DNA of 28,700 bases. Origin: a virus. The DNA lies in the IMG/VR virus record IMGVR_UViG_3300025598_000127, positions 1 to 28,700 of that record; one strand, written 5' to 3'. The position numbers and the translations under genes are program-made. The first letter of the stretch is position 1; the number at the start of each line of letters is the position of its first letter. This document shows positions 15,435 to 28,700 of the stretch, piece by piece. The notes below the pieces were generated by a model, which searched no databases, had not been told where the DNA came from, and saw nothing but the letters and a program-made list of their open reading frames with translations.

Positions 15435-17459
15435 TCAAATATGTTGGTTAGCGACTGCTAGTGCCTTGGCGACCGTTGTGTCGTCGAGGTTCAATAAGGG
15501 CTCTGTTTGTTTACCCTGTTTCTTTTTAATATGTTCGGCCATTTCAATCAACTGGTTGGCCTTGGATAATGCGGAATTGTTAGTTCTCCCACCTGAAGCG
15601 CGGGGAAGAGGCGTCAATCCCATTTTACGGATTTCATCGTCAATAGTTGTTTTGTTTTTTATTGCATTATCCTGAGCCGTAAAATAGTCAGAAACGGTAG
15701 GCTTTTTAGGTGCGCCATAAGACTTCTGCATTTCCTCTTCAAACTGCCTTGTAAACGGATTGGAAGATGGTTGAGGAGGCGCAGATTTGTCTCCTTCAAG
15801 TTGTGAAAGAGTACCAGGAAGCGTTGCCCCAGGCATAGTAGCAAGTTTGCTACCTTTGCCTGCGTAATATGCCGTTTCCCCTAAAGCGCGAGGAGATTTT
15901 AACAACATTGTTGGCGGAATTGCCAACGCGGCATAACCAGGATGCGCCCCCGCAAGTGTTGTTCCATAGTAACCAAGCGCCCCACCGCCCAATAAATCTT
16001 GGATGGTAAATTTAGGGGAACGAGATAAATCAGCGCCAGATATCATTTTTGGAATAGAAGGATCTATCTCGCCCAATTGATCAATAAGCGATTGCTTTTG
16101 CCCTTTGTTACGAGCAGACAATATTTTTTGAGCTTGCTGCTCAGGCGTCATATTGCGATTACCAAGGCCGCGGGCAATATCAGACAACTGATCACTGGCG
16201 GAACCATATTGTTCCATAATGTTTGAATAGTTTGGATCTATCTTGCTAATCGTCCCCTTGGCTGCATCAGCAACATCTAACGCAAGCTTTCCCCCTGGCG
16301 TTGTTGGGTCTTTAGCAACATCACGAATAGCGCGTTTTAATAAATCAAGTTCGTGAAGAGTATGTTGCCCAGGAGTAAACGAATAGGCAGGGCCGATCTT
16401 CCCTTGTTCGAACGCGTCAACCATACCGCTAACTTTTTGAGCTAGTGGATAATTAACTGGGCTATGGGCGGTATCCGCAAGCAATTTGTCGGACGCAGAG
16501 CGTATTGCGCTTATGTCAGCGCCTGTTCCGTTTTGTAAAGTGCTCATACCAGAAAGGTAATCTTGCGAACGTTTATTGGCTAAACTATCAACGGCCGATC
16601 TTACCCGATCGACAATATCCGTCTGCGGCGCCGTACCGCGCATTTGTCCCAAAAATTCTTTATCACCAGAAAGTATTCCACCTTCACGGCCTGCAGAAAA
16701 AGCATCGCCAAGGGATTTCGTGGATGTTCCTGTTAGACCTTCAAAGGCAGCACTTGGTACATCGGCAACGCCCTGAGCAATCCCACCAACCACCGGAATT
16801 TTAGAAACAACGTTACCGGCACCGCGGGCTAAACCAACACCAGCAGCAATAGGATTTGTCGCAGCAGCCAATACGCCTTTACCGGCTACACGGCCAACAA
16901 GGCCAGGCGCGCGCGCCAAAGCAGATTCACCGCCAGTTAATGGAACCGACAAGTCCATCAAAACACTTGCAGGATCTTCTGCGAGGGCGTGTTGAAAACC
17001 GGCTTTGGTACCATAACGGTTAGCATAATAATCACCGATCGCATTTACGACGGCTTCATTGCGGGCTTTTTCTTCCGCAGGCTGTTCATATCCAAGAGCG
17101 CCTTGAGCTTTTGAATATAACCCTTGGCCTATACCCTTTAAAGCTGTTCCAGTCTGCTCCCAATTGGAAGGCAGAAAAGGTTCAACCATGCCATAGGCGG
17201 CCTTACCTGCACTGCTAGGAAAATTTGTTACCGCCTGTTTTCCAACATCCATCCAAGCCATAGGTGCCTGAGTTTGCTCAGGTTGTTTTTGAACATACTC
17301 CTGTTTTGCTTCTTCAGCGCCAGCCTTAAACAAAGGGTTGTTTTGCCCATATTGAGGAGTTGCTGCCGTAGGGGCGGGGGTTGCCATAGGAGAGCTTACT
17401 TTACCCGCCTGTAAAAGTTCATCGGCAAATGGATTAGATGGTTTTTGAACAGGATCCAT
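15435..17459 (-). CDS. Virion protein, probable DNA-ejection protein, 674 aa
   Basis: There is no catalytic motif. The N-terminus is disordered (residues 1-70, P/A/Q-rich, starting PSNPFADELL), a helical glycine/alanine-rich part follows (about 165-240, hydrophobic runs GVLAAATNPIAAGVGLA and KIPVVGGIAQGV) and a second hydrophobic stretch lies at about 485-540. A short repeat of the N-terminal NPFADE signature occurs near residue 570 (NPFTRQFEEEM), and RASGGRTNN (620-628) precedes a helical end. Long, alanine-rich proteins of this type, last in podovirus virion operons, are usually internal or ejection proteins that reach the host membrane; this is inferred from position and composition. Confidence 0.65.
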   Translation of the reverse strand: MDPVQKPSNPFADELLQAGKVSSPMATPAPTAATPQYGQNNPLFKAGAEEAKQEYVQKQPEQTQAPMAWMDVGKQAVTNFPSSAGKAAYGMVEPFLPSNWEQTGTALKGIGQGLYSKAQGALGYEQPAEEKARNEAVVNAIGDYYANRYGTKAGFQHALAEDPASVLMDLSVPLTGGESALARAPGLVGRVAGKGVLAAATNPIAAGVGLARGAGNVVSKIPVVGGIAQGVADVPSAAFEGLTGTSTKSLGDAFSAGREGGILSGDKEFLGQMRGTAPQTDIVDRVRSAVDSLANKRSQDYLSGMSTLQNGTGADISAIRSASDKLLADTAHSPVNYPLAQKVSGMVDAFEQGKIGPAYSFTPGQHTLHELDLLKRAIRDVAKDPTTPGGKLALDVADAAKGTISKIDPNYSNIMEQYGSASDQLSDIARGLGNRNMTPEQQAQKILSARNKGQKQSLIDQLGEIDPSIPKMISGADLSRSPKFTIQDLLGGGALGYYGTTLAGAHPGYAALAIPPTMLLKSPRALGETAYYAGKGSKLATMPGATLPGTLSQLEGDKSAPPQPSSNPFTRQFEEEMQKSYGAPKKPTVSDYFTAQDNAIKNKTTIDDEIRKMGLTPLPRASGGRTNNSALSKANQLIEMAEHIKKKQGKQTEPLLNLDDTTVAKALAVANQHI

Positions 17460-17461
17460 TA

Positions 17462-20400
17462 TTAAACTCCGCGAACAAAGTAACGGCTGAGACCTTTAAT
17501 ATGATAGGCCTGTTGTAAAGCATCTTCAATTTGTTCTGGCGTTAAGCGTTCACCATTTGAAGTACGCCCATTCATCATTTGCGTAAATTGTTTAGGCCGG
17601 TGGGCGATCAAGTCAGAAAGGGCATTTTGCTCATCAACATAACGCTGCGATGTTTTGCGTTCAAAGTCGCGTCCAGCATTAACAAAAGAATTGTTAGATG
17701 TTTCACCCCATTGTTTTAAATGGCTATCAGCATCTGCGGCCCGCATATTTTGCGTCAACATCATTGCCGTTAAGTCAGAGAATGCCTCTTTCGACATATT
17801 TGGATTTGGTTGCAAGCTGGTCAGTGTATTAAAGGCCGCTAAACTATTTTGGCTTGCGTTATGAGCGCGAAGCGCGCCTTGAATAGCCGAGACCTTATCA
17901 GAAATAGCAGACTGTGTTTCGCCGCCTTGTACCTGCCATTCAGGATGGCCAACCATGCGAGCTGCCGTATTAAGCATATTGGTAATATCAGCACGTTGAT
18001 TGAAGCCAAAACCTGTTGCACCAAATTTTTCTAACCCAACTGCGTTTGCCAAGTTTGAAGACATTTCACGCAATGCGGCGGCCTCTTCGCGAGAAGCAGC
18101 GGCTTGAGCCATAACATTTTGACGGTACTTGTTAGATTCATTCCAAGCCGATTGAACACCCGGCCCGCCAACCATTGGATCAAGAGCGTCAGAATCTTTT
18201 GTTGCAGCTAAGTGTGAATTTTCGTCAAAGTTAAAGTCGGTCGGTATTTTACCAAACTCTTGTTGAGCGGCAGGATCTTTAGTCGGTGATCCAACGTTTG
18301 GTTTAGGAGCACCCGTAGCGGATGAAGTTGTTTCAGGCGATGCAGAATTTCCGCCATACATAGTTTGAATGATTTGACTGCCATTTGGCGGCTGGAAAGC
18401 AAGTTGAGGTTTTTGCGCGTCTGGGATCTTATTATAGTCAAAAACCTTCATTGGCATAATTTTGCCAGTTTGATCCTTGACCCAATAGAAATTCCCAGCC
18501 GGAGTTTGCTGGAACGAAAGTCTAAATGTATTAGCACGTGTTGCGTCCGTCTCTGCCTTCGTCTGCTCAATACCAGCAAGTGATTTTTGAGTTCCAAGGT
18601 AAGAGCCGGCACCTGCGCCAAGACCCTCAAGAAGAGCTGCGCCAAGATACGGACTACGCGAGGATGCCATTGCGCCTAAACCTGTTAAAACAGGAATAAC
18701 GTTTTCTGCTTTAAATAAATCCCCAAGACCGCCCTGTTGTTGCGATGTTTTTGTGGGTGTAGCCCGCGGGAATGCAGGCAGATCAGATCCTTGTGTTGGG
18801 GCACCTGCTGGAACGGCATTTTCCACCGGCATATCGGCAGCACCAAGGCCTTTATTAAACATTGAAACGTATTTAGGAACGGTTGTTTGGTTTACATCTT
18901 GAGCGTTGCCCGCTTGCGCGCGGGGCCTTCCTGAAAACCATACCGATGCCGCATCTTGCGGATTACCATATTGATTTAATGCTTTACCAAAGTGGTGGGC
19001 AAACACTTTATCTTGAGCATCGGTATTAGCAAGAAACTCATCAGGCGACATCTTTTTGCCAAGGGCTTCTTCTGTCCAAGATGGAACGTTTGCACCCATG
19101 ACTTGATATTTGCCATATCCACGATCGCCAGATTTTGTTACTGGACCAAGAGCATCGTATTTATTGCTGCTTTCAATGCCACCTATTACTGGTCCATATT
19201 TTGTTAATACATCGTCAGGCTCAACCGTGCCATCGGTAGCATAACCCGCACGCCCCCCTCTTGCAGCAAACATAGCCATTATTGCAGGGATATCTTCTGC
19301 AGCCGTTTTACCCGCATTTAAAAGAGTCATTGCATCGCCAAGAGTGCTCGATCCAAGACTTCCAGGTGTTTGATTCTTTTGGATAAATTTTTGCGATAAA
19401 AGATCTTTTTCGCCTTGTTTGATGACGTCAGCCATTGGATCATCTACGCTATAGGGTTCGGCGTCGCCTCCACTAGCGTACCCAACAAGCCCTCCGCGTG
19501 CATTTTCTGAAGGAGTTTGAGCCCCGGCGTCCGCATCTTCTTTTTGCTTTTGTTTAGCAAACATATCTTGAACCCAAGCTAAACCCTTTCCTTGGCCAGC
19601 GGGGTCAATTGCTTTATCAAAATTAGCAAGTTTTGTAGCGTAATCTATTCCTTGAGAAAGTTCGCTATCAGGAAGTCTAGGAGCCGCGCCTGGAGTACGG
19701 AGTTGAGCTGTTTGTAAAGATGCTTCCGGAACTCTGCTATGTTTTCCTATGCCACCAGAAAACGTTCTTGCCATTGGGACGGGATGAGAATCCGTATTAG
19801 CAAACATAGCCTGTTGGCGCGCAATAATGTTTTGCAAGCTATTTGGATCATAATCAGAACCAACGGCATCACCATAAGCATGATGTTCCCGACCACCTAA
19901 GCCGAAACCCATACCTTCATGTTGAGGTCCCACTAAGCCGCCTTGGGCTCGAGCGGCGCGATCGTAATCAACCGTCTTGTAGCCACCCGCCAAACCAACC
20001 GCTTCTGGATGAACCTTTTCAACCTCATCGGCCATAAAACCAATATGTGTTTGTTCAGTCGGGTCTCCTTTGTACTTAAACTTATAAATTGGAAGACCGT
20101 TTTTAGCTTTTCCAACTTGTTTAATATCTTCTTTAAGACGGCGGTCAGAGAAGAAAGACATAGGTTGGGTTGTAGTAGTTGTAGACCCAGAATTTGGACC
20201 AGTAATACCCGCAATCCCCGCCAAGAATTGGGCTGTTTGGAAAGGATAAGCCTGTTGCTGCAAGAACTGGTTGTAAAGAGCTGTCTGACCGGCCTGTTGG
20301 GTTTGTTGTTGCAACGTACCAGCGCCAAGTTGGGCTTGAGCACCCTGTAATCCCGCGGCCTGTGCGCCAGCACCAAGATTCCCATATTGCGCGCCAGCCG

Positions 20401-21334
20401 CCAAAGATAAGGGGACTCCTTGCAATGCGGCATTTTGAGCTGCAGTCCCCAAAGCACCGTATTGAGTAGCACCTTGCATGCCTTGGCCGGCGATGTTGGC
20501 AATATTGCCAGCACCTTGTTGTTGCGCCAAACCGGCATTGATAAGAGCTTGCTGAGATTGACCGCCCAACTGACCGTATTGATTGGCCAAAGCGCCCTGA
20601 GCGCCAAGCCCTTGCATATAATTTTGAGCAGCCTGTTGATAGCCCTGATTAGCCATTTGGCCAAGCGTTTGCCCCATTGCAAGGTTTTGCTGACCCATAA
20701 GAGCGGCCTGAGCAACGCCCGAACGATCCCCACCAAAAGCGCCTTGGCTAATGGCGTTACCCAATAACTGTTGTTGCTGTTGTTGGTTTTGATTTTGCAG
20801 CATAGCCGCAGTCGAACCCATGGCGTTTTGTAAATATGGATTCATGTAACCTTGTACGCCAGCGGCGTAGTTTGGCGCGTTATAACCTTGTGATGCAGCT
20901 GCAGTTCCGGCTAAAGCTTGATTGTATGCAGGTTGAGCAGCGTAAGTGGCTTGCATCAAAGGAGTCATAGCAGCACCCGCAAGCCCTGCAGCTTGTTGGT
21001 ACCCAGGCATTGCAGCATTAGCTTGTTGTTGAGCTTGCGTAAAATAAGGCTGGGCTACGTTTTGGCCTGCACCAATTTGGCTCATTGCGGCGTTTGTGGC
21101 GCCATATCCGGCTTGGTATCCAGGTTGGGCCGCATTTGCATATTGATTAGTAGCGTTAATGCCGCCTTGCTGCTGTGCGTTTATTTGTGCAACAAATGCA
21201 GATGGATCGGTGCTGTATTGTTGAAATGGTTGAGCGGCCGCTTTATCAGCAGCAGCGTTAACGGTGTTATACCGGGCCAAGACCTCTGGAGGTATGGATG
21301 TCGTCTGGGTCGTGGTACCGGTTTTTCCGCCCAT
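17462..21334 (-). CDS. 1290-aa virion protein with mid-chain S74 domain and lysozyme-like domain
   Basis: Residues 1-390 are low-complexity Q/A/G-rich helical sequence. Residues 393-462 (FFSDRRLKEDIKQVG ... KTVDYDRA) are an S74 intramolecular-chaperone/auto-processing domain, with Ser396 and Lys401 in the usual SD.RLK context. Residues 713-825 are lysozyme-like: GPVIGGIESSNKYDAL (Glu721 as likely catalytic acid), DRGYGKYQVMG, WTEEALGKKMS and ASVWFSG, as in soluble lytic transglycosylases. The remaining 460 residues are alanine-rich and helical. The start follows GGAG. It is probably an internal virion protein that opens peptidoglycan during DNA entry. S74 domains normally sit at the C-terminus, so the mid-chain position is odd. 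Confidence 0.8.
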   Translation of the reverse strand: MGGKTGTTTQTTSIPPEVLARYNTVNAAADKAAAQPFQQYSTDPSAFVAQINAQQQGGINATNQYANAAQPGYQAGYGATNAAMSQIGAGQNVAQPYFTQAQQQANAAMPGYQQAAGLAGAAMTPLMQATYAAQPAYNQALAGTAAASQGYNAPNYAAGVQGYMNPYLQNAMGSTAAMLQNQNQQQQQQLLGNAISQGAFGGDRSGVAQAALMGQQNLAMGQTLGQMANQGYQQAAQNYMQGLGAQGALANQYGQLGGQSQQALINAGLAQQQGAGNIANIAGQGMQGATQYGALGTAAQNAALQGVPLSLAAGAQYGNLGAGAQAAGLQGAQAQLGAGTLQQQTQQAGQTALYNQFLQQQAYPFQTAQFLAGIAGITGPNSGSTTTTTQPMSFFSDRRLKEDIKQVGKAKNGLPIYKFKYKGDPTEQTHIGFMADEVEKVHPEAVGLAGGYKTVDYDRAARAQGGLVGPQHEGMGFGLGGREHHAYGDAVGSDYDPNSLQNIIARQQAMFANTDSHPVPMARTFSGGIGKHSRVPEASLQTAQLRTPGAAPRLPDSELSQGIDYATKLANFDKAIDPAGQGKGLAWVQDMFAKQKQKEDADAGAQTPSENARGGLVGYASGGDAEPYSVDDPMADVIKQGEKDLLSQKFIQKNQTPGSLGSSTLGDAMTLLNAGKTAAEDIPAIMAMFAARGGRAGYATDGTVEPDDVLTKYGPVIGGIESSNKYDALGPVTKSGDRGYGKYQVMGANVPSWTEEALGKKMSPDEFLANTDAQDKVFAHHFGKALNQYGNPQDAASVWFSGRPRAQAGNAQDVNQTTVPKYVSMFNKGLGAADMPVENAVPAGAPTQGSDLPAFPRATPTKTSQQQGGLGDLFKAENVIPVLTGLGAMASSRSPYLGAALLEGLGAGAGSYLGTQKSLAGIEQTKAETDATRANTFRLSFQQTPAGNFYWVKDQTGKIMPMKVFDYNKIPDAQKPQLAFQPPNGSQIIQTMYGGNSASPETTSSATGAPKPNVGSPTKDPAAQQEFGKIPTDFNFDENSHLAATKDSDALDPMVGGPGVQSAWNESNKYRQNVMAQAAASREEAAALREMSSNLANAVGLEKFGATGFGFNQRADITNMLNTAARMVGHPEWQVQGGETQSAISDKVSAIQGALRAHNASQNSLAAFNTLTSLQPNPNMSKEAFSDLTAMMLTQNMRAADADSHLKQWGETSNNSFVNAGRDFERKTSQRYVDEQNALSDLIAHRPKQFTQMMNGRTSNGERLTPEQIEDALQQAYHIKGLSRYFVRGV

Positions 21335-21335
21335 T

Positions 21336-21851
21336 TTATTGCTCCGTCACATGCTCTTCATGCCCAGTTTGGGCGTTATATAGAAAGAAAGCTCCTGAGG
21401 GAGCGCCGAAAGACTTTTCATAAAGCCGGATTTTAGCCTCTGTGCGGTGCTTGGAAAGTACACCAATCAACAAAGGAAGACCCAACTGTTCAGCGGTCCG
21501 TTTGGAGAACTCGCATAAAGTACGAGCATGACCGAGGGTTTGCCCTGAACGTATCCCCTTCATGATCCGAAACTCGGGATCAACAAAAATTGCTTTTTCC
21601 TCAAGTATCCATTCATCAGAATACCACATCTGTGACGTTCGGAGAAGGACCGCCGCTTCAATCTTTTCACCGGGTTCCCCAATGATCCCGACTAAGCCCT
21701 GCCAAAGATAAAGAGCAGGTTTTATCATGCCTAACATCTTTTCAGGGTTTACGCTTTTAATCCCGTTTTCTTCCCAAGCTTTAAGCGCCAGTTGAAGCAT
21801 CCCCTCTTCGTCCGCTGGCGTTCCAAGGCGTATTTTAAGTCCTTCTGCCAT
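21336..21851 (-). CDS. GNAT-family N-acetyltransferase, 171 aa
   Basis: The N-terminus KIRLGTPADEEGMLQLALKAWEENG is a GNAT beta1-alpha1 motif. A core strand EKAIFVDPEFRIMKG is followed by the acetyl-CoA-binding helix region SGQTLGHARTLCEFSKRTAE, and the end LYEKSFGAPSGAFFLYN fits the final strand. The usual Q/R-x-x-G-x-G/A loop is not clear, so binding may be altered. It sits among virion genes, as in some podoviruses, which suggests a virion or host-protein target; the substrate is unknown. Its stop lies 1 base before the next gene. Confidence 0.8.
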   Translation of the reverse strand: MAEGLKIRLGTPADEEGMLQLALKAWEENGIKSVNPEKMLGMIKPALYLWQGLVGIIGEPGEKIEAAVLLRTSQMWYSDEWILEEKAIFVDPEFRIMKGIRSGQTLGHARTLCEFSKRTAEQLGLPLLIGVLSKHRTEAKIRLYEKSFGAPSGAFFLYNAQTGHEEHVTEQ

Positions 21852-22519
21852 TAATCCCTCTTAGGTCCTGGTAATTTTTTAAGTGTTTCTATCGTTTTTT
21901 TGCGATACCCTGTTACAAAATGGTCAAGAATTTCATGACCGTGATCAATATCCCCACCGCCCAAATGTGTAACATCATCTGGATTAATAACATATTCTCC
22001 GCCTGCGGCCACTATCTCTACAGGGGTTTCACCGCCTGATGCCCGCGCGCCGTAAGGTTTTCCTTTGGTGTAAGGGGTTCCTTCGGCGGAATATGGCATT
22101 TTGGACGTTTGAAAGTATGGTTTTGATGAAAACATCTGCCGAGCTATCTTAAACCCAGCCATTGTATTGCCTTCGCCCATAGATGAAATGATATCTGCAG
22201 GGATTACATAAGATCCGGATTTTACGTTCATTGGCAAATGGTCTGTGCGACCTGCCACGGGGCTATGAATTGGGCCTTCATGAAGCATATGCTGCCCCGC
22301 CAAAGGATAAGACGGCATTGGAATAGACATATCGGGTTTGCGGTAATCCAAAGGACCGGTAGTTGTGGTAGTGGACTGATTCGCCCCACCAATTGCGCGG
22401 GAGTGTTTAGCCGTGTTTAAAGCGGCCGCTATGGATTGATCCAAAGTATGCCCAGCATGAACCATTTCGGAGATATTGTGGCTAATTGTTTTTTGTGATG
22501 ATCCATGTGCGAGCGGCAT
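21851..22519 (-). CDS. Conserved virion-operon protein, 222 aa
   Basis: Three conserved parts are visible. The N-terminus MPLAHGSSQKTISHNI followed by a helix ending LDQSIAAAL matches a small phage motif (MPL..G.S.K.I..NI...G....QAIAIAL). The middle holds SGSYVIPADIISSMGEGNT (101-119). The end has RASGGETPVEIVAAGGEYVI (159-178) and GGGDIDHGHEILDHF. This is a recurrent family in phages with short tails; its function is not established. It overlaps its neighbours by one base on each side, in the virion block. Confidence 0.75.
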   Translation of the reverse strand: MPLAHGSSQKTISHNISEMVHAGHTLDQSIAAALNTAKHSRAIGGANQSTTTTTGPLDYRKPDMSIPMPSYPLAGQHMLHEGPIHSPVAGRTDHLPMNVKSGSYVIPADIISSMGEGNTMAGFKIARQMFSSKPYFQTSKMPYSAEGTPYTKGKPYGARASGGETPVEIVAAGGEYVINPDDVTHLGGGDIDHGHEILDHFVTGYRKKTIETLKKLPGPKRD

Positions 22520-22863
22520 TATGAGTACCCCACTGAAATTACCGAACTTGTGCCCGGAATAAAAACCAACCCCGATGAAAACGGTACTTGTATCTGATAT
22601 ATTCCCAGAGTATTTGGAACTGCATATATTCGTTTTCCTGTTGTTGAAGATGTGCTTGTAGAATCATAAAGGTAACCTTGTGTGGAACCGGCCACAAGGA
22701 CGCTTACACTGGCCAACCAACCGGAAGATGTTTTGATAACTGAGCTTGCTGAAAGTTCTTTAGTATTATTTTGACCCGCAAGAAAATTTAAAGCATTAAC
22801 GTAAGAGTTAATTGCGATAACACCATTTTTTTGTGTAGTTAAAATATCATCTAAACTAGCCAT
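22519..22863 (-). CDS. Small virion-associated protein, 114 aa
   Basis: It begins MASLDDILTTQKNGVIAINS, a helix, and continues as beta-rich sequence (SGWLASVSVLVAGSTQGYLYD, PNTLGIYQIQVPFSSGL). This is a conserved family next to gp10-like proteins in podoviruses. The beta segment (G.L..VSVL.AG...G.IYD) resembles phage receptor-binding or adaptor beta sandwiches. The start/stop overlaps the gp10-like gene by one base. Function is unconfirmed. Confidence 0.72.
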   Translation of the reverse strand: MASLDDILTTQKNGVIAINSYVNALNFLAGQNNTKELSASSVIKTSSGWLASVSVLVAGSTQGYLYDSTSTSSTTGKRIYAVPNTLGIYQIQVPFSSGLVFIPGTSSVISVGYS

Positions 22864-25157
22864 TAGAATTTCCCATCTACCTGATAACGATATTTAATTC
22901 CACCCAACCGCCAGAAAGTGCCCAATTCATCGGGGGCATAGGACAACGAGAAAGACATGTATCGAGCGCGAATGCGACAAGAAATATATTCGGTGGCCTG
23001 CGTCATGGGAAATGTTTGGAAATTGAATGACGAAGTATTGGATGAACTTACACCTGAATATGCGCTTGTAGTAGGCGAAGTGGCGGCAACAGTTGCATAA
23101 TTGGTATAATAGACGGTCAAATATACAGTAGCATTTTGATTGCCAGAATAGGTTCCCCATTTCATATCGGGCCATATCTGATCCACGAATACTATATTGT
23201 CCGCTTCGTTTAATTGAAAATACCCTGTCGAGAATGCTGTCTGCATAGCAGTAGGCGTTTGACCGGAATAAGCATCATTGCCTACTTCATGTTGATATAA
23301 CCAATTATCAGAGCCAGCACCAATGGGAGGCCCAAGAACAGATTGATCAATCCAAGCAGTACGGCCAAGAGTACCGTAGTCCCACTGTTGTAGGACGTAG
23401 TTATATTTGACATAGCTATCGTTCTCAGTCGATGAGGCGGATGGGTAAAACCATGAAATTTCATTAAATTGAGAATTGACAGCGCAGCAAACTTTATAAA
23501 GATAAGATTGGTTAAGATTTTGAAAAATCACATCCCAAATCGGGCAAGGAATTGGTTGAGGGCCGGACCCCATAGACATAAAAAATTGGTTTTGGCTCAT
23601 CCAATAAATGGCGCCGTTTGCTTGTCCCATGCAATGTTTGCTGATGGCTCCGCAGTTAGAACCAATTTTGTTGAACCCATAAACAAGCGGCGGCCCAACA
23701 TATTGCATCGCCCATAAATCAAGGTCAGTCCAAAGAAGTCCTTGCTGCGGCCCCTGAAAACCAGCGACAATTCTTGAGCCAGTAGGAATGCGGAACGACC
23801 CTGCCTGATTTGTTACGGTCGCAATCCAAGTAGTTGGATCGTTAACGTCGGACCAGCGGACTAAGAGAGGATCTGCCTGTAAAGTAAATGATGAACCATA
23901 AGCTATGACTTGTCGTTCTGGCATAGCGACAAAAATACCAGACGATAGCAAAGGCGCATTTCCGCCAATATACTGTGCAGTTTGTAGAGATCCTGATGGA
24001 TTGTAATAGTAAATAGGACCTCCAGAAGAGCCCGTTAAAACAGGGCATGCAACAAGGTAAGAACCAAAGTTATCTAAGGTCCAATCGGTTGCTGTAATTG
24101 GTGTCCCAGGAACTTGTGGTTGAGCCGTACCAGAACCGTAGCCACCTGTACCGTAACCACCAACACCATAACCTGTTCCAGTATTCGATGGGCCAATTGC
24201 TATATAAAAAACAGAATTAACGTTTCCGCTATTTATAGCAGTAGGGCCAGCAGAGGATGAAGCAGTATTGGCTGCAGTAAATTGGAATGTTCCGCTATTT
24301 ATGATTTTGTTTACAATATACAACCCAAAAAGAGTAACACCGCCGATGGTCGTCGAGACACCGACATAAAATGATGCGCCAACAGATAAGCCGTGGTTAT
24401 CTAAATAACATGTAACAACAGCACTTCCGCTTGAAACTTGGAAAGATGGTACTGCTACTAATTTGGCTGTTCCGGTACCGGTTCCAACGCCAGTAGCATT
24501 AAAAATTACACCGACTGTGTTGGCAGAGGCACCAATAGCCGTAAAGTCTGTGGTCCCAACGCTCGTTATTTTATATGTTTGATTGATAATAAACGAACCG
24601 GCAGTAATTGTTGCGCTTGTATCAACCGCACTTGTAGCGCTCGTTGGGACTTGAATTGAATATGTATTGTTGAATGCGGAGTATATCGCATAGGGACCAT
24701 ATAAGACTAAACCACCCACTGAAACAGGTGTAACGTAATTTACATAGTCAAAGGTAGATACTTGGATATTGCTATCTGTAACGGTGACAATTTGTGAATC
24801 AGATCCTGTGCTTGTTACGAAAACAGGCGGAGTATTGGTTACAGATGTCTGTGGTGTAATATCAAGAGGCGTTGAATTGATACTAGGCGTTAAAATATCA
24901 AGAGAAGATTCCGCGCCGATACCAAGGCGATTAACCCCGTTAAGGTCAGACCAACCTTTTAGAGCGCGTACTTTTGAATTAATTGGTGAAGTTGTACTTG
25001 CGTAGTTAACCCACCCGCCAAGCTTTTGAGCTAACCCAAGGCCATTTCGTTCTGGCAAAAAGCGAATTAGTTGCGATGAAGAATAAGCGGCTTGGTTTAA
25101 TACCGGAGTATTAGTGGTTTCTACGCCTGGCTTTAAATTTATTGTTGCGTGAGGCAT
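22863..25157 (-). CDS. gp10-like packaged-DNA stabilisation / tail hub protein, 764 aa
   Basis: The N-terminus (GLGLAQKLGGWVNYAS, VRALKGWSDLNGVNRLGIGA) and the region with WSDVNDPTTWIA, IPTGSRIVAGFQGPQQGLLW and GAIYWMSQNQFFMS match the beta-propeller pattern of P22 gp10-like tail proteins. Between are two diverged copies of a beta-domain (residues 111-179 and 237-303) with an inserted GT-rich domain (183-233) and a Gly/Tyr-rich run (322-346). The start follows GAGG. It lies after the adaptor gene, as in P22-like tails. The exact family assignment is inferred. Confidence 0.75.
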   Translation of the reverse strand: MPHATINLKPGVETTNTPVLNQAAYSSSQLIRFLPERNGLGLAQKLGGWVNYASTTSPINSKVRALKGWSDLNGVNRLGIGAESSLDILTPSINSTPLDITPQTSVTNTPPVFVTSTGSDSQIVTVTDSNIQVSTFDYVNYVTPVSVGGLVLYGPYAIYSAFNNTYSIQVPTSATSAVDTSATITAGSFIINQTYKITSVGTTDFTAIGASANTVGVIFNATGVGTGTGTAKLVAVPSFQVSSGSAVVTCYLDNHGLSVGASFYVGVSTTIGGVTLFGLYIVNKIINSGTFQFTAANTASSSAGPTAINSGNVNSVFYIAIGPSNTGTGYGVGGYGTGGYGSGTAQPQVPGTPITATDWTLDNFGSYLVACPVLTGSSGGPIYYYNPSGSLQTAQYIGGNAPLLSSGIFVAMPERQVIAYGSSFTLQADPLLVRWSDVNDPTTWIATVTNQAGSFRIPTGSRIVAGFQGPQQGLLWTDLDLWAMQYVGPPLVYGFNKIGSNCGAISKHCMGQANGAIYWMSQNQFFMSMGSGPQPIPCPIWDVIFQNLNQSYLYKVCCAVNSQFNEISWFYPSASSTENDSYVKYNYVLQQWDYGTLGRTAWIDQSVLGPPIGAGSDNWLYQHEVGNDAYSGQTPTAMQTAFSTGYFQLNEADNIVFVDQIWPDMKWGTYSGNQNATVYLTVYYTNYATVAATSPTTSAYSGVSSSNTSSFNFQTFPMTQATEYISCRIRARYMSFSLSYAPDELGTFWRLGGIKYRYQVDGKF
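24459..24611 (-). other. Inserted TAGSF...GTGTGTA beta-domain within the gp10-like protein
   Basis: Residues 183-233 run from ITAGSFIINQTYKITSVGTT through FTAIGASANTVGV to GVGTGTGTA. The same motif is widespread as a mobile module in many phage tail and structural proteins. It separates two copies of a different beta-domain, so it looks like an insertion. Confidence 0.7.
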
Positions 25158-25160
25158 GGA

Positions 25161-25874
25161 TTACCTCGTAGGCGATGCGACAGGCGCAGGTGAATATGAT
25201 GTCCATGCAGCGGATTCAAACTTCTTACGATTTTCTTCAATCATCGCACTAGCCTTCAAAGCTTGGTACTGAGATTCGTAAGTTTGAGCCATTTGCGGGT
25301 CATCGTTCATGCGGCCAAAGTTGCGTTGATATGCGGAGATATAGATCATGGATGCCATGATAAACAAATCCGGCAAATAGGTAGATATAAAGGTTGTTGT
25401 ATTAGTAGCAGACAGCGGAGCCGATCGAACAGTGCCTGTTAAACGAACTGTATAATTTGTGCCTGGCGTTGGTCCGACGATAATATTTTGAGATGTATTA
25501 CCCGTGGTTGCGGTATCGCCACCGTAGACAGCAAAATATTGAGGCAATCCCGTGGCAGACCCAGAACCATAAACGTTTTGAATATATTCTTTTGCTACTG
25601 GAACAAGTGGAGTAGAGTTTCCAAAATCATCAAGAACTTCAAAGGTTTGCGGCACTATAAATTGGGACGTTGGAATAGTTAAAGTATTGTTGTTAACGGT
25701 AAATGAGTAAGCTGTCGTGCTTATTTGTGTAGACAAGAAGTCCAAGTCGCGTTGAATACGAAGTTCCGCATAGTCAATCATGCTAGGCAAAATAATCGTG
25801 TAATTGGGATCCGTTACGGGGATAACGGCCATTGTCGCAATTTGTTGGACGTAACTTGAATAAGTAAGCGACAT
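25161..25874 (-). CDS. Head-tail/tail adaptor protein, 237 aa
   Basis: It begins MSLTYSSYVQQIATMAVIPV, then ILPSMIDYAELRIQRDLDFL, an architecture of the P22 gp4-like/phage adaptor family (N-terminal helix, LP..I..AE.RI.RDL). Beta-rich parts follow and a helical C-terminus contains SAYQRNFGRMNDDPQMAQTY ... ALKA. The protein would join the portal to the tail hub, encoded next door with 3 bases between them. The start is supported by GGGTGATCT just after the endolysin stop. Confidence 0.78.
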   Translation of the reverse strand: MSLTYSSYVQQIATMAVIPVTDPNYTIILPSMIDYAELRIQRDLDFLSTQISTTAYSFTVNNNTLTIPTSQFIVPQTFEVLDDFGNSTPLVPVAKEYIQNVYGSGSATGLPQYFAVYGGDTATTGNTSQNIIVGPTPGTNYTVRLTGTVRSAPLSATNTTTFISTYLPDLFIMASMIYISAYQRNFGRMNDDPQMAQTYESQYQALKASAMIEENRKKFESAAWTSYSPAPVASPTR

Positions 25875-25877
25875 AGA

Positions 25878-26393
25878 TCACCCAACCATATTGAAAGAAA
25901 CGGTTTCTACTTCTGAAACGCGCTTAGACCACCCCTTGCCAAATGTACCATAGGTCGAGAGAGATTGTAAGAAGGCTAATCTTGCTTCACAGACGGCTGT
26001 AGCAACTTCGCGAGGGTTTGACGTTTCAAGAGCGCGTAGCGTGGCGGGCCCGATTTGTCCGTCGACATTAACACTGAGTACCGACTGAAGGGCTTTCGCG
26101 GCCCTCGAGGGGCCCGAGTTGATTGCAAAATCAAAGACGGCATAATCTACACCTTCAGGTAAAAGGTCGCCTTGAATTTTATCCCAATACTTAGCTTTGT
26201 ATAGAGGCATGACATCGTTAGGTTTTAAATCCTTAATGTCATCTTTAGTTACCTCATGACCTACCCATTCTTCCCAAGCTGCTTTTGTGCATCCAAGGTT
26301 TGTAGCCCCGCCGGGATCTTTTGGGTTGTCAACGTAACCACCTTCGTTTTTAAGAACAAGGGCAAAGCATTGAGGAAAATTAGCAGCAGTCAT
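25878..26393 (-). CDS. GH108 endolysin (N-acetylmuramidase) with C-terminal peptidoglycan-binding domain, 171 aa
   Basis: Residues 10-80 are glycoside hydrolase family 108: ALVLKNEGGYVDNPKDPGGAT with catalytic Glu17 in NEGGY, then LYKAKYWDKIQGD. Residues 81-170 are the PG_binding_3 domain (DYAVFDFAINSGPSRAAK, VDGQIGPATLRAL, RLAFLQ). There is no signal peptide, so release depends on a holin. The start at 26393 overlaps the lipoprotein stop (ATGA); a longer reading to 26417 lies inside the lipoprotein gene. It is last of the four lysis genes, which is an unusual order. Confidence 0.95.
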   Translation of the reverse strand: MTAANFPQCFALVLKNEGGYVDNPKDPGGATNLGCTKAAWEEWVGHEVTKDDIKDLKPNDVMPLYKAKYWDKIQGDLLPEGVDYAVFDFAINSGPSRAAKALQSVLSVNVDGQIGPATLRALETSNPREVATAVCEARLAFLQSLSTYGTFGKGWSKRVSEVETVSFNMVG

Positions 26394-26584
26394 TTTGCAC
26401 CACAGAATTGTTTCCACTTGTCATCATGAGATAGGATTTGAGTGGCTGTCTTATTAGTTAATTTATCGTCTTTATTGACATAGATGGGTTTAACCCAGTT
26501 GCAAGACGTATCTACAATTTTGGTTTCTGGTTTTGGCATACAGGCTGCTACAGGCAATAATGTAATCAAAAAAAGGCGTTTCAT
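26390..26584 (-). CDS. Lipoprotein, o-spanin (Rz1-like) candidate, 64 aa
   Basis: The signal peptide MKRLFLITLLPVAAC ends in a lipobox (VAAC), giving a lipid-anchored mature protein of about 50 residues that begins CMPKPETK. The mature part contains DTSCNWVKPIYVNKDD and ends KWKQFCG; two cysteines could pair. It lies after the i-spanin candidate and before the endolysin, with four-base overlaps. A short outer-membrane lipoprotein in this place fits an o-spanin; it is less proline-rich than classic Rz1. The start is chosen by GGAG six bases upstream. Confidence 0.78.
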   Translation of the reverse strand: MKRLFLITLLPVAACMPKPETKIVDTSCNWVKPIYVNKDDKLTNKTATQILSHDDKWKQFCGAK

Positions 26585-27538: not shown

Positions 27539-27832
27539 TCAAGATTGATTGATAGGCCGCGACAATTGACTTATTTGCGAAGCTATCTGGCTTTCAACAG
27601 CTATTGTATTGATGCTTTGCGACACCCATTCAAAAGCTTGAGCGTATGTAATTTCACTGTAGGGCACAAAGTTAGACAGATCAGGGGCACCCAAATGGAC
27701 AGTGCCAGATAAAGACGTTGAAACGTTCCCGTTAGTACCCGTGCAAATCCAATTAATGGCCGCAACTACATTTGGTGGGTCATTATAAGAGAAGTTGATG
27801 ACGAATTGAGGAAATGACCATGTAAATTTCAT
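27539..27832 (-). CDS. DUF7936-like small phage protein, 97 aa
   Basis: The protein has a beta N-terminus (MKFTWSFPQFVINFSYND), VVAAINWICTGTNGNVSTSL and a helical end (YAQAFEWVSQSINTIAVESQ). The arrangement (VV....W..TG..G..S...G....L....F.PY..IT......WV) matches small proteins (DUF7936) seen in phage tail regions. It starts in a 4-base overlap with the tail-fibre gene upstream. No function is established. Confidence 0.62.
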   Translation of the reverse strand: MKFTWSFPQFVINFSYNDPPNVVAAINWICTGTNGNVSTSLSGTVHLGAPDLSNFVPYSEITYAQAFEWVSQSINTIAVESQIASQISQLSRPINQS

Positions 27833-28700
27833 GATCTGCCTTCAAGGCGGTCAACTTTGTCAGAAAGTTCTTTAACGGCTTCAATCAAAAGGGCAACAAT
27901 TCGATCGTATTTAACCGCTTTATAGCCGTCTTCTCTTGTAGCAACCACTTCTGGCAAGACCGATTCGATTTCTTGGGCAATAACGCCAACATCGTGTTTG
28001 CGGATAAAGTAACCGTCTTCCCCGCCGGCTTCGGCAATAAACTCATCGGACCAATCAAACTCAACGCCGTTAATTGTGTTAACCTTTTTCAAAGCGTCGG
28101 TGATTTTTGATACGTTATTTTTAAGGCGTTCATCGGAAGAATAGTATCCAGTGATGTTGTTAGTAGCGCGGATTTCACCAGTAACCCCAGAGGCGGGGGT
28201 ACCAACGCCAAGTGAGTTAACTTGAAGAGACCCAGAAATAGTTTCACTTGAAACGCTAAGGTTGCTAATAGACGCACTAGGAACAGATAAGCTGCCGCTT
28301 AGTACTTCATTAACGCCATAAATGTTGCCAGAAAAGTTGCCGGTTGCGGCATTTAAAGTCGTGCAGTTGACGGTTCCAAAATTTACTGTGGCGCTTGAAT
28401 CGCCAAGAATGCCGTCATCAGATTTATTAACGTTTCCACCTGATGCATAAAGAAAAATACTATACCCCTGAGGGACGACAACGACTGTTCCTGCGGCCGA
28501 GTTTGATCCGCTATTGGATCCTATTGATACGTTATAAGAACCAGTAGTCGCGTTACTAACCACCCACGAGCCGGAAATGCCTTGTGGTAGCAAAACAAGT
28601 TGGTTAGCGTTCAATGAACCAGTCAACAAAATTCGAAAACACTGCGACGTATTGGCAGTAGGGGTGGCGGTTGGCGCCGAAATCAACGTATAAGTTGGAG
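27829..28700 (-). CDS. Tail-fibre-like protein with C-terminal S74 chaperone domain, 5' end beyond the window
   Basis: The frame stays open to the right edge with no convincing start codon (only TTG at 28686), so the gene is cut by the window. The visible N-terminal part is a beta repeat (FRILLTGSLNANQLVLLPQG, WVVSNATTGSYNVSIG). A low-complexity shaft follows (ISNLSVSSETISGSLQVNSL), then from about visible residue 183 a full S74 domain (SSDERLKNNVSKI ... HDVGVIAQEIESVLPEVV ... GYKAVKYDRIVALLIEAVKEL) with a terminal coil. S74 domains fold trimeric fibres and then cut themselves off. This is probably a receptor-binding fibre or spike component. Confidence 0.85.
   Translation of the reverse strand, partial: PTYTLISAPTATPTANTSQCFRILLTGSLNANQLVLLPQGISGSWVVSNATTGSYNVSIGSNSGSNSAAGTVVVVPQGYSIFLYASGGNVNKSDDGILGDSSATVNFGTVNCTTLNAATGNFSGNIYGVNEVLSGSLSVPSASISNLSVSSETISGSLQVNSLGVGTPASGVTGEIRATNNITGYYSSDERLKNNVSKITDALKKVNTINGVEFDWSDEFIAEAGGEDGYFIRKHDVGVIAQEIESVLPEVVATREDGYKAVKYDRIVALLIEAVKELSDKVDRLEGRS

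Follow-up and report, generated by a model that had tools for sequence, protein, structure and literature searches.

An internal S74 domain without a coiled coil as a candidate self-cleaving separator in a fused ejection-type virion protein

The IMG/VR virus record IMGVR_UViG_3300025598_000127 was analysed over positions 1 to 28,700 (28,700 bases, completeness of the record unknown; this whole stretch is referred to as the window). An unbroken open reading frame (ORF) at 17462-21334 on the minus strand encodes a protein of 1290 residues, designated P0001, with a Peptidase_S74 domain in its middle, a domain known mainly as a disposable end-piece for the folding of fibres. Comparison with relatives supported the gene of P0001 as an apparently natural fusion of a gene for an S74-ended protein with one for an ejection/lysozyme protein. 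We consider it rather probable that the S74 domain serves DNA-ejection proteins as an optional, self-cleaving separator, and that in the fused gene it would still act as an autopeptidase cutting before Ser396. The first-pass annotation of the window had placed the S74 gene at the same coordinates, which stood; its strand is minus, and the plus-strand translation contained many stops. The fused gene and its parts are as follows.

17462-21334, minus strand: whole fused ORF of P0001, 1290 residues, an open frame whose protein is found identically in contigs L003 and L004
20150-21334, minus strand: Q/A/G-rich N-terminal ejection-type part, residues 1-395, from the match to gp27 of phage phiM5 (together with the S74 domain), the composition and the helix model
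20147-20152, minus strand: predicted scissile bond between F395 and S396, from homology with P586/S587 of MyRF
19955-20149, minus strand: helix-less S74 domain, residues 396-460, with Ser396 and Lys401, from Pfam, our own hidden Markov model (HMM; 395-460), the invariant dyad and the ratio of nonsynonymous to synonymous differences (pN/pS)
19226-19954, minus strand: fast-changing linker with GG motifs, residues 461-703, from pN/pS of 0.57-0.69 and a low-confidence model
19226-19294, minus strand: site of the second S74 of some relatives, empty in P0001, residues 681-703, from alignment with L181 and L189
18797-19225, minus strand: transglycosylase/lysozyme-like domain, residues 704-846, E721 likely catalytic, from phrog_24990, the separate gene in L086 and a weak GH23-like model match
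17465-18796, minus strand: C-terminal region, residues 847-1290, with the conserved motif LxGLGxMASSxSPYLGxA, from alignments

The sole Pfam match in P0001 was Peptidase_S74 (PF13884) over residues 396-446, scoring 48.2 bits where the cut-off is 22 (E = 1.3e-12), indicating that the motif was not a chance hexamer. The motif, read as SD.RLK at 396-401 in the first-pass annotation, is SDRRLK with the dyad of Ser396 and Lys401 intact. As that annotation, which counted 890 residues, had also noted, a long tail follows; it consists of 889 residues after K401 and 830 after the domain, so that S74 is not C-terminal here. A profile built from 12 S74 domains matched solved S74 structures, namely 6f45 (8e-8), 3gud and MyRF (7dc3), with Ser396 and Lys401 aligned to the known dyad and F419/Y421 to Y615/Y617 of MyRF. 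This profile search succeeded where phmmer with a single S74 sequence against the PDB had given chance matches only. Residues 400-460 were modelled with a predicted local distance difference test score (pLDDT) of about 90-94. The structural matches of this model, obtained with a second aligner, were weak, with low Z values of 3.9 for 7dc3 and 3.3 for 3gud; Foldseek with the model of the whole N-terminal part and S74 gave no significant match, probably swamped by the low-confidence helices.

No coiled coil was found after the S74 domain of P0001. The sequence past VDYDRA is ARAQGGLVGPQHEG, and the chain past the domain, where a fibre-type S74 has its helix, reads VDYDRAARAQGGLVGPQHEG. Upstream, residues 16-378 formed helices in the model with low to moderate confidence, and nothing in it suggested a fibre stalk before the domain. 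A accounts for 21% of residues 1-395, Q for 19% and G for 14%, and charged residues are nearly absent, in agreement with the Q/A/G-rich part of about 395 residues pointed out earlier; no trypsin site (K or R) lies between residues 331 and 397. The S74 of P0001 is not a displaced fibre chaperone but belongs to a helix-less subclass tied to ejection-type proteins. The earlier view of it as a domain that normally ends a fibre thus needed revision, also because a mid-protein S74-type domain has a precedent in MyRF (PMC8326128).

The S, D and K of SDxxxK were invariant in 43 clusters of helix-less S74 domains, no two of which exceeded 80% identity (mean pairwise 49%). Only 6 of the 67 columns were invariant, and the three middle letters of SDxxxK varied to give 25 different hexamers. 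A census of relatives was then compiled from proteins fetched through N-terminal patterns outside S74, which avoids a retrieval bias, together with earlier loci; only sequences identical over the first 200 residues were dropped, and near relatives remain in it. It contained 77 proteins with S74 in the middle, 14 with a terminal S74 and one cut by the contig end, all keeping SDxxxK. A remainder of seven proteins was either cut short or, in the case of L074, split without S74; this relative of 285 residues (L074 5932-6789, plus strand) ends near the expected start of S74. No degenerate or decayed S74 was seen in the census, the dyad being intact or the whole domain missing. The S74 HMM was built on domains containing SDxxxK; as its scores were high (mostly E of 1e-20 to 1e-30), a domain lacking three columns should still be detected. 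The intact catalytic residues foreseen in the first-pass annotation therefore extend far beyond P0001, and relatives with the same architecture that had lost only these residues, which it had named as counter-evidence, were not encountered. When P0001 was compared with eight relatives, S74 was the most constrained segment: its relative pN/pS was 0.12-0.20, that of the adjoining linker 0.57-0.69. Synonymous sites were near saturation, and only the comparison between segments counts.

The two parts of P0001 were found as separate genes. Gp27 of Sinorhizobium phage phiM5 (468 residues) aligned end to end with residues 5-483 of P0001 (E = 1e-23), ends 12 residues past S74 and matched phrog_4287, named 'DNA ejection protein' in PHROGs, at 6.5e-91. 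Its GenBank entry carries the note 'detected in phage particle proteome'. The same is noted for the product of the following gene, gp28, annotated as an internal virion protein/exolysin, whose gene starts 3 nt past the stop of gp27. Homology of gp28 to the C-terminal part had been suggested by a tblastn alignment (395-577) that seemed to run past the gp27 stop, but direct comparison of gp28 with P0001 or with the profile of its C-terminal part gave nothing significant. Gp28 was therefore regarded as a positional counterpart only, and the direct evidence for the split comes from the IMG/VR contig L086. There, the gene of an S74-ended protein (60% identity to P0001 across 67 S74 residues) lies 5 nt ahead of a separate gene for a protein of 559 residues, the first 208 of which showed 42% identity to residues 704-915 of P0001 (E = 8e-39); this match contained nothing corresponding to the linker 461-703. 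In most split loci with an available downstream ORF, that ORF begins no more than a few bases from where the S74 gene stops. These loci bear out the earlier suggestion that a protein of about 470 residues ending in S74 was joined to an ejection protein, and supply the relatives with the two parts in separate genes whose search had been advised.

The fused architecture was not peculiar to this record. Misassembly or another artefact as the origin of P0001 was dropped because contigs L003 and L004 carry an identical protein and the architecture recurs in dozens of relatives. In the tree of the N-terminal parts, the fused forms lay on one side of a branch with support 99/98. Because the root of this tree is not known, we infer the direction, fusion and not fission, from the wide spread of the split forms.

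S74 was both optional and repeated among the relatives. On a tree of 65 N-terminal parts, at least seven changes along well-supported branches were required to explain the lack of S74, and at least five to explain the proteins with two S74 domains, which were scattered over it. Two S74 domains, all with intact dyads, were present in seven proteins (L053, L138, L152, L171, L180, L181 and L189). In L152 and in L171 the closest relative of the second copy, or nearly the closest, was that protein's first copy, while each copy of L053 and L181 was closer to copies elsewhere than to its partner; with relationships so mixed, both duplication and exchange are likely. In the group of L181 and L189 the second S74 is neatly inserted as a cassette, with a hydrophobic stretch before it and a GG motif after it, and alignment with these two proteins showed the corresponding site of P0001, residues 681-703, to be empty. 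The contigs L053 (Candidatus Paceibacterota metagenome-assembled genome) and L052 (Chloroflexi metagenome-assembled genome), both from genome bins and both with a gene for this phage protein, are possibly misbinned phage contigs, and their titled hosts are not trustworthy.

Sequence matches were found for the transglycosylase-like domain proposed after S74. The unnamed family phrog_24990 matched residues 713-846 (E = 8.6e-18), tblastn aligned residues 703-843 with tape-measure and minor tail proteins of phages, and E721 sits in the expected motif at the position of the expected catalytic Glu. Pfam gave no match over this region, and the resemblance of its model to the GH23 chitinase 3w6b was weak (probability 0.91 but E of 0.57). 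The model of the C-terminal half was poor, with a mean pLDDT of 47.6, and little therefore rests on it. The version of the muralytic module in P0001 also occurs in tape-measure proteins of Rhizobium/Sinorhizobium phages and in minor tail proteins of Streptomyces phages. Relatives exchange this module for others (Phage_lysozyme, SLT, Glyco_hydro_108); the loci concerned are 18797-19225 (minus strand) of the window and L010, L013, L014, L021, L028, L171, L180 and L181. Further matches in PHROGs were to phrog_6121 (residues 174-463, 2.9e-16) and phrog_4287 (residues 267-459, 2.5e-13), both of them S74-ended families, and both matches include S74. P0001 is probably a protein that enters the bacterium along with the DNA.

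In the mechanism that we favour, fusion would have joined the gene of an S74-ended DNA-ejection-type protein, the counterpart of phiM5 gp27, to the next gene, encoding a peptidoglycan-cleaving ejection protein, and a terminal S74 would have become internal. The chain would fold and oligomerise during assembly before being cut, and Ser396, with Lys401 as the base, would then cleave it between F395 and S396. The predicted products are an N-terminal ejection protein of 40.0 kDa and an S74-transglycosylase piece of 95.4 kDa (calculated masses), both of which would remain in the particle until ejection. Two proteins could in this manner be made one-to-one, reach the particle jointly and then be freed for separate action.

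Several observations weigh against this mechanism. Cleavage of MyRF needs trimers, made mainly by a C-terminal coiled coil in which single changes abolish cleavage (PMC8326128), and the coiled coil was absent from every ejection-type S74 collected, internal or terminal; an oligomer of another kind would have to take the place of the coiled-coil trimer. The census also included 13 fused relatives without any S74, and separation by S74 therefore cannot be generally required. The DNA-ejection label derives from the PHROG names, the GenBank proteome note and the gene order, and profile comparison of the N-terminal part of P0001 with gp7 of phage P22 revealed no similarity, leaving homology between the two unsupported. 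If S74 were instead a folded and useful module for oligomerisation or docking in the particle, with the protein staying at full length, the missing helix would present no difficulty; the fold was confidently predicted without it, and the S74-less fused relatives imply that an uncut chain evidently can work. Such a module offers no evident reason for Ser and Lys to be invariant while the middle of the motif varies into 25 hexamers, nor for the dyad never being lost among more than 90 S74 domains. We regard a non-cutting S74 as unlikely, and it keeps an appreciable share of the weight because the missing trimerising helix is the chief objection to cutting.

It is also conceivable, with a low probability, that S74 acts only as a chaperone and timer and cuts during assembly, the key being the newly exposed C-terminus of the upstream part and not the separation. 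The 15 residues before Ser were strongly hydrophobic in the terminal S74s of split forms (mean Kyte-Doolittle value 1.05 against a background of -0.41, n=43) and in second S74 copies (1.39, n=7), and split forms would gain nothing by separation, as their S74 is already terminal. In contrast, the first site of the fused proteins including P0001 was not unusually hydrophobic (-0.13, n=64). As speculation, a cut at the hydrophobic sites would leave a hydrophobic C-terminus that might matter for membrane insertion, which would not apply to the S74 of P0001 itself. A functionless leftover of the fusion, retained through recent ancestry, would fit the dispensability of S74 in 13 relatives. This explanation was largely refuted by the low pN/pS of the domain, the invariance of the dyad over deep divergence and the repeated presence of a second copy, and is very improbable.

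Returning to the self-cleaving separator, the helix-less S74s may, more tentatively and with a chance a little short of even, define a class of internal virion polyproteins. One or two S74s per chain would be inserted as optional cassettes, each cutting before itself and staying on the downstream product, and ejection proteins with different jobs would be packaged as one chain and severed from one another afterwards, with no need of a separate protease. If S74 does cut ejection proteins, internal virion proteins could be processed without such a protease. This would also account for the labels 'chaperone of endosialidase' and 'tail fiber domain' on non-fibre genes, and raise the question of which oligomer activates S74 without a coiled coil. 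The fused, split, S74-less and double-S74 relatives offer a natural series for testing this activation. A literature search found no paper that describes S74 in ejection proteins or other internal proteins of the virion, in a limited collection where absence does not prove that none exists.

Around the fused gene lie an SU10-type adaptor, a phrog_3287 virion protein and small ORFs, then the fused gene and an ORF of 674 residues. The features concerned are as follows.

25161-25874: SU10-type adaptor
22863-25157: phrog_3287 virion protein
21336-21851, minus strand: ORF of 171 residues directly upstream of the fused gene, in the position of annotated acyltransferases in related phages
15435-17459, minus strand: ORF of 674 residues, 2 nt downstream, by its position a candidate further internal virion protein
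27829-28698, minus strand: S74 protein of the ordinary fibre type, truncated at the end of the record and having the coiled-coil tail, from Pfam

The ORF of 171 residues had no family match of its own, and that of 674 residues had none in Pfam or PHROGs. The same contig thus holds two S74 subclasses, the fibre type at 27829-28698 and the helix-less type of P0001. A Glyco_hydro_108 endolysin at 25878-26417 (minus strand; Pfam, 92.8 bits) is separate from the transglycosylase-like domain of the virion protein. Short RGG/ASGG motifs were shared by the linker 461-703 of P0001 and the proteins at 21851-22519 and 15435-17459, both on the minus strand.

Among known systems, the S74 chaperones of fibres and tailspikes sit at the end of the protein, behind a triple beta-helix, and have a coiled-coil tail. 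Those of endoNF, the T5 L-shaped fibre and the GA-1 neck appendage (3gud) have a homologous domain with SDxxxK, whereas the ejection-type S74 is helix-less and either internal or at the end of an ejection-type protein. Replacement of Ser by Ala blocked the cut in an S74 fibre of Bdellovibrio (PMC10769870), and according to a review S74 is used by tail fibres and tailspikes as well as by other proteins of low complexity (PMC7824862). The split relatives differ from P0001 in having two genes instead of one, as with gp27/gp28 of phiM5 and the pair in L086. P22 gp7 is a processed protein, losing its N-terminus to the host protease OpdA, and the ejection genes of the gp7-gp20-gp16 set also come after the adaptor and head-closure genes. 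However, gp7 matches no S74 family, while PAE2_13, an S74-ended relative, matched the gp7 family phrog_598 at 5.7e-30. A likeness in architecture is offered by MyRF, whose ICA domain is an internal S74-type domain that is cut just before Ser and stays on the downstream part (PMC8326128). Its Ser-Lys dyad has the same spacing as in P0001, and its aromatic pair Y615/Y617, the double mutation of which blocks the normal cut (PMC8326128), corresponds to F419/Y421. MyRF is a eukaryotic membrane transcription factor, with a beta-helical stalk before the domain and a trimerising coiled coil after it, neither of which was seen in P0001.

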